DNA from: Deltaproteobacteria bacterium
Lineage (GTDB): Bacteria > Desulfobacterota > GWC2-55-46
Assembly: GCA_016235365.1 (NCBI GenBank)
Contig: JACRLF010000105.1
Coordinates: 1 to 33,159, forward strand
Direction of reading: 5' to 3'
DNA length: 33,159 bases
Positions within the stretch are counted from its first letter, which is position 1, and every line of letters starts with the position of its first letter. The notes beneath the pieces are model-generated. The model made no database searches, was not told the origin of the DNA, and saw only the letters and a program-made list of their open reading frames with translations. Position numbers and translations under genes: made by a program. Shown here piece by piece: positions 6,974 to 10,796 of this stretch.

Positions 6974-7549
6974 TCAGAGGTCTTTCTTCTCCGTGCCGGA
7001 GGACTTGTCCGTCCTCAGCATCTTTCTCTGCCTGGCGAATACGTACCTTATTATCTTGTCCCTCGTGGCCTCGTCCATGCCGATGTACTTGACGGCGACG
7101 TCGTAGCCGCCCTCCGCCCTCGGGGCAACGCGCACCACCTCGCACTTGACGGATACGGTGTGGGCGTAGGTGGGCAGGAATATCTTCATGACGAGCAGGT
7201 CGCCCGCCTTGAACTTGTCAAAACAGTAGAACTGCAGCCCGCCGCCGCTTATGTTGACGTTCCTTGCCTGGGGTATCTTGAAGCCGTGCCGGGTGGAGAT
7301 GTAATCAAGGAGGATGTTGAGCTTGTTGTTCATGTCGAACAATAGCTCGTAGAGCTTCGTGTTTTCCTCGGGGCCGGGCTCTATCTCTTCGAAGAGGGTC
7401 TCCCACCCCTGCGCGGGCTTGATCTCCGAAGCGCCGTCGAGCACTCCATAGTACACCGGCACGCAGTCGTCCGCCCTTACATGCTCGCGCGACACGCCGT
7501 CGCTCTCAGGCTCCTTTTCAGGCCCGCCGCTTCCCCTCTCGGAATCCAT
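6974..7549 (-). CDS. PilZ-domain-like protein
   Basis: ARNVNISGGGLQFYCFDKFKAGDLLVMKIFLP...VKCEVVRV...YDVAVKYIGMDEATRDKIIRYVFARQRKML resembles PilZ architecture. Confidence 0.72.
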   Translation of the reverse strand: MDSERGSGGPEKEPESDGVSREHVRADDCVPVYYGVLDGASEIKPAQGWETLFEEIEPGPEENTKLYELLFDMNNKLNILLDYISTRHGFKIPQARNVNISGGGLQFYCFDKFKAGDLLVMKIFLPTYAHTVSVKCEVVRVAPRAEGGYDVAVKYIGMDEATRDKIIRYVFARQRKMLRTDKSSGTEKKDL

Positions 7550-7555
7550 ATCTCG

Positions 7556-9208
7556 TCAACCCCTGCCGATATTCAATATCCCGCTTGACAGGAACGCCTC
7601 GACCACGGCGGGGTCGAACTGCGTCCCTCCGCATCTTACTATCTCCTCCATGGACATCTCGAAGCTCAACGCATTGCGGTAGGGCCTTGAGGACGTCATG
7701 GCGTCGAACGTGTCGGCGACGCTGAATATCCTCGCCGCAAGCGGTATTGCGTCGCCCTTGAGCCTGTTCGGGTACCCGTCTCCGTCCCACCTCTCATGGC
7801 TGAATATCCTCGCCGCAAGCGGTATTGCGTCGCCCTTGAGCCTGTTCGGGTACCCGTCTCCGTCCCACCTCTCATGGTGGTAGAGGACCACGGCCTTTTC
7901 CGCGGTCAGAAGGTTCAGGGGCCTCAGTATCTCCTCGCCCCTCACCACATGGGTCTTCATTATCTGCTTCTCCTCCTCGGTAAAGATGCCTCTTTTAAGG
8001 AGGACGTCGTCCCTTACGGCGATCTTGCCTATATCGTGGAGGGGGCCGGCGAAGCTTATGCTGTCTATTACGTCCTGAGCGCAGCCGAGGGTCTCGGCTA
8101 TCTTTACGGCATAGGCGGTAACCCTCTTGGAGTGATCCTTGGTGTAGGTGTCCCTCGCGTCCAGCGCGTTGATAAGCGAATTGAGCGCCGCGATGATGCT
8201 GCCGAATATGTTATCATATAACGCTATATTTTCAAGCTTCAAAGACGCCTTGGCCGTCAGGTTCAGCAACAGGGCCACGGAGTCGTTGGAAAAGCCGCTC
8301 TGCTCGTCCTTGCCCGCAAGCCCGAGCACCACGACCACTTCCCTGTTCATCAGCATCGGGGCCAGCAGGATCGACTTCCTCCCGTCCTGTTTATCCGATA
8401 CCAGCGGGAAAAGCCCGTCGTCTTCGGCTACCATGTACGAGTAGCACCTGTTCTTTATGACGCTCTTGAACGGCTCGGCGTCGGAAGAGAACCTCAACCC
8501 CACGACGGAGTCGTCATCATACCCTGAAGAGGCCCTTACCACAAGCTCTCTGTTGTCGTCCTCCACGACCATTATGAACGCCTTTTCCGCGCCCATTATT
8601 ATCTGGGCGATGTCCATCGTCTTCCCGAATATCAGCTCCTTGTCATTCGCCTCATCGAGGGTTTCGCTTATGGTATGGAGGATGGAGAGGTCCCTTATCT
8701 TGTCTTCGAGCCTCTTCCTCGCTACCTCCGGCATCCTTCCGATGGCCCCGTGGTCGGCCACCGGCATTGAAGCCCTGTGCGCCCTGATGACGTGGGCCTC
8801 GTTGGCGGCCTTCCTTACTGCTATCTCAAGCTCCTCGGCCTTGAACGGCTTCGGCAGAAAATCAACGGCGCCTATCTTCATAGCCTCGACGGCCCTGCCG
8901 ATGGTCGGGTACCCGGTGATCATCACAACCGGCACGTCAGGGGCCGTTTGCTTAGCCATCTGGAGAAAATCTATCCCGCTCAGGCCGGGCATGTTTATAT
9001 CGGCCAGCACGACGTCGTAGTTGTTGCCCCTCAAGTCCGCGATGGCCCTCTCGGCGGAATTGAAGTCATTTACGCGCCAGCCCTTCCTCGAGAGTATCTC
9101 GGATATGGCGTCGCGCACGCTGTCGTCGTCGTCGATGACCATTATCTTTATGGAGTTCAAGTCATCATTAATAACCGGCTGCAAGTTCGATCTCCTTTGA
9201 CCGCCCAC
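7556..9208 (-). CDS. Response regulator with REC, GAF-like and HD-GYP domains; 26-aa tandem duplication in the GYP region
   Basis: IMVIDDDDSVRDAISEIL...VVLADINMPGLSGIDFL receiver; HDIGKIAVRDDVLLKRG HD; HHERWDGDGYPNRLKGDAIPLAARIFS GYP segment present twice. Confidence 0.93.
   Translation of the reverse strand: MGGQRRSNLQPVINDDLNSIKIMVIDDDDSVRDAISEILSRKGWRVNDFNSAERAIADLRGNNYDVVLADINMPGLSGIDFLQMAKQTAPDVPVVMITGYPTIGRAVEAMKIGAVDFLPKPFKAEELEIAVRKAANEAHVIRAHRASMPVADHGAIGRMPEVARKRLEDKIRDLSILHTISETLDEANDKELIFGKTMDIAQIIMGAEKAFIMVVEDDNRELVVRASSGYDDDSVVGLRFSSDAEPFKSVIKNRCYSYMVAEDDGLFPLVSDKQDGRKSILLAPMLMNREVVVVLGLAGKDEQSGFSNDSVALLLNLTAKASLKLENIALYDNIFGSIIAALNSLINALDARDTYTKDHSKRVTAYAVKIAETLGCAQDVIDSISFAGPLHDIGKIAVRDDVLLKRGIFTEEEKQIMKTHVVRGEEILRPLNLLTAEKAVVLYHHERWDGDGYPNRLKGDAIPLAARIFSHERWDGDGYPNRLKGDAIPLAARIFSVADTFDAMTSSRPYRNALSFEMSMEEIVRCGGTQFDPAVVEAFLSSGILNIGRG
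7721..7877. repeat. Exact 78-bp direct tandem duplication within the HD-GYP gene
   Basis: gctgaatatcctcgccgcaagcggtattgcgtcgcccttgagcctgttcgggtacccgtctccgtcccacctctcatg repeated head to tail with period 78 and no mismatch seen. Confidence 0.95.
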
Positions 9209-9359: not shown

Positions 9360-9968
9360 TCACGCCTTCGAGGCGGTCTTTACCTTGAGGAACCTGTCCG
9401 CCTCCTTGAGATACTCCTGGCGCTTCAACGGGTTCCTGGCCCCGTTCTCCGGCATCCCCATCTTCTCTTCGTAGCCGTCCGTCTCCTGCGCCGCGGGCGG
9501 GGCGCCGCCCGCCCGTGAAAGCGCGTCCTTTAACGCCGCCATCTCGCCATACGCGCTCCTCAGCTCGTCAAGCAGGGCCTTGTTCTGCGCAACGAGCCTC
9601 AAGCGCTCGGAGGCCTTCTTCAGGACTATCATGAGCTCATCGAGCCTGAAGGGCTTGGCTATATAGTCGTATGCCCCGGCCTCGATCGCCTTCACGGCCG
9701 TCTCGATGGTCGAATATCCGGTAATGATTATCACCAATATCGACGGGTCGAGCTCCTTTATCTTCATCAGAAGCGTGATACCGTCCATCCTGGGCATCAT
9801 AAGGTCCGTGATGACGATGTCATACTTCTCCATCCTGAGCCTTCTTATGGCCTCTTCACCGTCCTGCGCGATGGAGGCGGAGTATCCCCAGCCCCCGGCG
9901 GCCTCGGCGAGCAATTCTCTCAGTGCGGAATCGTCGTCCGTAATCAGAATTTTGAAACCGTCGGCCAT
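9360..9968 (-). CDS. Response regulator receiver protein
   Basis: ILITDDDSALRELLAEA, DIVITDLMMPRMDGITLL, IITGYSTIETAVKAIEAGAYDYIAKPF. Confidence 0.93.
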   Translation of the reverse strand: MADGFKILITDDDSALRELLAEAAGGWGYSASIAQDGEEAIRRLRMEKYDIVITDLMMPRMDGITLLMKIKELDPSILVIIITGYSTIETAVKAIEAGAYDYIAKPFRLDELMIVLKKASERLRLVAQNKALLDELRSAYGEMAALKDALSRAGGAPPAAQETDGYEEKMGMPENGARNPLKRQEYLKEADRFLKVKTASKA

Positions 9969-10615: not shown

Positions 10616-10743
10616 AACAGGTTGCTCAAAAAGTTACAGATGCGAGGAGTCGAGAAAGTGAGGAATGAGGCGTACTTTGTCCGTACGCCGCAGTGACGAA
10701 CGCCGAGACGACAAAGCAGATGTGACTTTTTCAGCAACCTGTT
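10616..10743. repeat. Palindromic MITE/REP-like element (family A), 128 bp
   Basis: aacaggttgctcaaaaagt...actttttcagcaacctgtt terminal inverted repeats and an internal GGCGTAC-tttgtcc-GTACGCC hairpin. Confidence 0.85.
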
Positions 10744-10796
10744 AAGAAGCCGACGCGCCCGCCTCTTGTTCCGCGGGCCGTCTTCACGGGAAGCCT

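Follow-up and report, generated by a model that had tools for sequence, protein, structure and literature searches.

The 78-nt tandem doubling within an HD-GYP response regulator gene of this Deltaproteobacteria bacterium is probably an assembly error, a reading that we argue from a genome-wide pattern, because perfect doublings recur across the source genome and some of them wreck conserved genes. The window studied here (33,159 nt) spans the whole of contig C81, one of 144 that make up a draft genome of 1.99 Mb and 88.5% completeness. We infer that two overlapping pieces of one locus were joined end to end and that an overlap of about 78 nt was left uncollapsed at the join, which would have written it twice. 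On this reading the real gene would be unremarkable and encode a REC-GAF-HD-GYP response regulator with a single GYP, as its orthologues do.

At the level of the DNA, the doubling is perfect. Positions 7721-7798 and 7799-7876 (78 nt each) are 100% identical in a direct comparison of the copies, TRF reports two copies at 7721-7877 (period 78, 2.0 copies, match 100%; not assigned to a strand), and a maximal-repeat scan gives a longest exact match of 79 nt (7721-7799 = 7799-7877) with a junction homology of 1 nt. Chance cannot account for an exact repeat of 79 nt in a sequence of 33 kb. There are no Ns at the join, and TRF finds no other tandem repeat in the window. All three approaches confirm the exact, mismatch-free head-to-tail duplication that an earlier note on this DNA had described, and the frame does stay open through it as claimed there: the doubling repeats HERWDGDGYPNRLKGDAIPLAARIFS in frame within a 550-aa ORF on the minus strand, with the two 26-aa copies forming residues 445-470 and 471-496.

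The affected gene (7556-9208, minus strand) begins with GTG and encodes 550 aa as assembled or 524 aa with a single unit. Matches to the Pfam families Response_reg, GAF_3, HD_5, and HD lay out a REC domain at residues 22-131 (Response_reg, E 4e-28), a GAF domain at 190-327, and an HD-GYP domain at 344-504 (HD_5, E 5e-44; HD, E 3e-20), and the phospho-acceptor D70 of the receiver (VVLADINMPG) is invariant among orthologues. The closest solved relative is PmGH, the GAF-HD-GYP phosphodiesterase of Persephonella marina (PDB 4mcw/4mdz/4me4, E 4e-45), which likewise has GAF followed by HD-GYP over residues 169-541 of the window protein, with an unchanged order of the HD, HH, and GYP motifs and the alpha10 Asp, but has a single GYP loop and no match to the REC domain. 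Together, the Pfam and PmGH matches bear out the earlier assignment as an HD-GYP response regulator. A PilZ-domain gene (6974-7549) lies directly downstream, a second receiver-domain gene (9360-9968) upstream, and FliD and flagellin genes farther out; the HD-GYP gene is therefore nothing unusual in this neighbourhood of c-di-GMP and motility genes.

Comparison with orthologues, which the earlier note had asked for, revealed a single copy of the HERWDGxGYP...ARIFS unit in 16 of 16 full-length sequences aligned (59-69% identity), in agreement with its statement that HD-GYP proteins normally carry the GYP signature once. Against each of these sequences the window protein shows a clean 26-residue insertion, and the search match ends near residue 470 and restarts near 471. 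The closest named orthologues come from metagenome genomes of uncultured Deltaproteobacteria; these REC-GAF-HD-GYP regulators (e.g., of the draft genome GWB2_55_19) share the domain order of the window protein at roughly 59-69% identity, but have one unit each where it has two. A genome of the same genus, G001 (79% complete), is without a close match to the HD-GYP gene (best 37% identity).

Alignment to PmGH (PMC4159591) locates both copies relative to the metal ligands. The first in gene order (7799-7876, minus strand; residues 445-470) is preceded by H444, and the HH metal-ligand pair H444-H445 is thus kept directly before its GYP; the second (7721-7798, minus strand; residues 471-496) is preceded by Ser470 rather than His and followed directly by VAD499, of which D499 corresponds to the PmGH ligand D305 in helix alpha10. 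The unit therefore runs from H445, the second of the HH pair, to two residues before Asp499, with HH-GYP retained by copy 1 and GYP-helix-Asp by copy 2. An HDIGK motif and a metal-ligand set matching that of PmGH are present (H359, H391, D392, K395, H420, H444, H445, and D499), as is the HHExxDGxGYP signature, its unit doubled as assembled; should the doubling prove to be an artefact, the protein would be fully in keeping with one signature per HD-GYP domain. Tyr355 stands where PmGH has E185, which on sequence grounds places the protein in the Y/F subfamily, predicted to be binuclear (PMC4159591).

A scan for tandem doublings with periods of 18 to 200 nt across 960 kb of the source genome (81 contig stretches, approximately 48% of the genome) showed that the doubling in the HD-GYP gene has company. 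This sample contains 12 perfect whole-unit doublings with periods between 19 and 92 nt (78, 19, 24, 39, 92, 51, 28, 28, 71, 34, 43, and 76), 10 of which have a junction homology of only 0-1 nt. By comparison, just 2 doublings are 90-99.9% alike. Since nearly all are perfect and few are diverged, there is no continuum of ages, whereas diverged copies, too, would be expected from a real process acting steadily. The identical scan found no perfect doubling in three relatives, for which it covered 646 kb in total: 400 kb from a single-contig genome, 157 kb from the same-genus genome, and 89 kb from another draft genome. At equal rates the probability of all 12 falling in the source genome is P ~0.002; a few perfect short-period arrays were also found in 495 kb of unrelated loci. 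At least two of the non-coding doublings, at L137 and L152, fall within a dispersed repeat family and may have arisen differently.

The doublings that fall into coding sequence (6 of the 12) carry no sign of selection. Three are in frame (78, 24, and 39 nt) and three break it (19, 28, and 76 nt), in line with chance. We had considered the open frame of the HD-GYP gene as proof that its doubling is real, and rejected this after finding frame-breaking doublings in other genes. The 28-nt doubling at L134:1398 breaks a PssA-type CDP-alcohol phosphatidyltransferase gene, which need not be essential, as the source genome has two more matches of this kind; the 19-nt doubling at L107:10360 breaks an S4/PseudoU_synth_2 (RluB/RsuA-type) pseudouridine synthase gene; and the 76-nt doubling at L204:597 breaks the only PgpA locus of the genome, with Pfam matching PgpA in two pieces. 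The same-genus genome covers three of the doubling sites and lacks the extra unit at all of them, being exactly 28 nt shorter at the PssA-type site (98% identity), exactly 39 nt shorter at L116 (94%), and 24 nt shorter at L112 (93%). Similarly, the RluB-type gene of a relative is 19 nt shorter at the doubling site. The same-genus comparison for the PgpA gene at L204 is confounded by dispersed repeats and distance. The unit is thus single in close relatives, both among the HD-GYP orthologues and at the three same-genus sites, and perfect doublings recur in the source genome regardless of frame.

Repeats of other kinds are present as well. A dispersed element of around 125-135 nt, with copies at 10618-10749 and 457-503 of the window, forms a single long, imperfect hairpin when folded (RNA MFE -54 kcal/mol over 132 nt) and gives 67 BLAST matches in 960 kb of the source genome, 20 of them at least 110 nt long; the same-genus genome and relatives within the family have copies as well. 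Rfam has no match in the window. One copy at L112:2444-2575 has an apparent empty site as its counterpart in the same-genus genome: contig G001:C109 (1563-2110) matches both flanks but has about 3 nt where the copy has some 130 nt, which suggests a mobile MITE-like element. Separately, a 915-aa open frame at L122:6902-7300 has internal repeats with periods of 90, 150, and 240 nt and probably encodes a genuine repeat protein, because these repeats are partly diverged.

The source genome bears other marks of its assembly. Contig ends overlap exactly by 141 nt (three pairs) or 119 nt (one pair), as expected for a multi-k de Bruijn (MEGAHIT-type) assembly, and 141 is the largest value in the default k list of MEGAHIT. 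One sampled contig contains a run of 25 N that may be a scaffold gap. The same contig-end length of 141 nt is seen in an exact direct repeat within one contig (L124:14597 and 15938, 1,341 nt apart), a possible misjoin. The value 79 also belongs to the default k list of MEGAHIT, and we considered a pure k-length artefact as the whole explanation, but dropped it since most of the 12 match lengths differ from the k values: 3 of the 12 (29, 39, and 79) fall on the list, an excess over expectation that is weak (P ~0.03). Metagenome assembly errors that have been described include overlaps that are left uncollapsed at joins and so duplicate sequence, and the artificial concatenation of identical sequence (PMC7111523). 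The 78-nt doubling resembles these in consisting of an exact extra local copy that is missing in relatives and has near-zero junction homology, with the difference that it has no Ns at its join. Spurious frameshifts are known to arise in low-coverage assemblies (PMC11017572). The literature search yielded no exact account of this artefact in MEGAHIT, and the descriptions cited here are general ones.

Overlapping ends joined uncollapsed would be one technical cause and the simplest account of all twelve doublings, and such joins fit better than a selected or slippage-maintained duplication. Some observations run counter to an artefact: the 78-nt doubling keeps the frame, as 1 in 3 would by chance; the match lengths fail to converge on a single k, so that no one simple k-mer error covers all twelve; and the doublings at L137 and L152 and the perfect short-period arrays of unrelated loci count on the same side. 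With most match lengths lying off the MEGAHIT k values, uncollapsed joining is a tentative mechanism. Of the three readings offered by the earlier note (a very recent event, maintenance by slippage, or an artefact of assembly), the last fits best, and any genuine recent duplication is, all told, unlikely. Slippage fares worst among them: a two-copy repeat that is slippage-maintained or phase-variable and tunes c-di-GMP turnover has in its favour only the in-frame unit and the identical copies, and a junction homology of 1 nt leaves little to start from. Copy number does not vary among the aligned orthologues either, which have one unit each, with no relative at 0, 2, or 3, and a 78-nt change never shifts the frame and cannot switch the gene off in that way; we regard this reading as extremely improbable. 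No more credible is a genuine burst of homology-free short tandem duplications, e.g., by fill-in and joining of staggered breaks. It would suit 12 perfect doublings per 0.96 Mb, both in and out of frame and 10 of them with 0-1 nt of homology, as well as their absence from three relatives, but it would need to have started only a short time ago in this lineage and already have fixed breaks in PssA-type, PgpA, and RluB-type genes, and an assembly fault is simpler.

A single real and very recent 78-nt duplication in the source strain, inserting 26 aa between the HH pair and the helix of Asp499, is rather unlikely but keeps some standing. The frame is open across the 550-aa gene, and all first-shell ligands shared with the Y/F subfamily are retained in order (H359, H391, D392, H420, H444, H445, and D499). 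The enzyme could survive an additional GYP, given that alanine substitutions in the GYP motif of PmGH do not greatly reduce activity (PMC4159591). Against it stand the junction homology of 1 nt, the absence from all 16 full-length orthologues aligned, and membership in a genome-wide class with gene-breaking and almost no diverged members; whatever explains a very recent event would also have to explain the 11 other perfect doublings of the sample, some of them gene-destroying. If the doubling were real, 26 residues must loop out between two ligand-bearing helices. To judge from the sequence, the GYP of copy 1 and helix alpha10 of copy 2 could in principle rebuild the site around them, and by analogy the predicted enzyme might tolerate such an insert because the PmGH alanine mutants remain active. 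AlphaFold predictions for the doubled protein and a single-copy orthologue control, based on 15-16 aligned sequences, reach a pLDDT of only ~30-45 in a region that begins where the HDIGK helix ends and takes in the GYP loop, and these models are too poor there to judge whether a doubled loop folds. The functional enzyme with a doubled GYP loop that the earlier note envisaged is unsupported; a real doubling would most likely lower activity or be neutral, with no particular selection on the allele. That the doublings are real, homology-free duplications of 20-90 nt arising across the genome at a high rate, and that one of them results in a viable HD-GYP enzyme whose GYP loop is doubled, seems very improbable.

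Reading the doubling as an uncollapsed join keeps a two-GYP phosphodiesterase from being claimed in error. The source genome, and possibly others made by that pipeline, also call for caution, since they contain perfect doublings that introduce spurious insertions and spurious pseudogenes; in an annotation of the source genome, such pseudogenes would be called at L134:1398, L107:10360, and L204:597. A cheap screen is to count perfect versus nearly perfect tandem doublings and to ask whether those in genes are blind to the reading frame.
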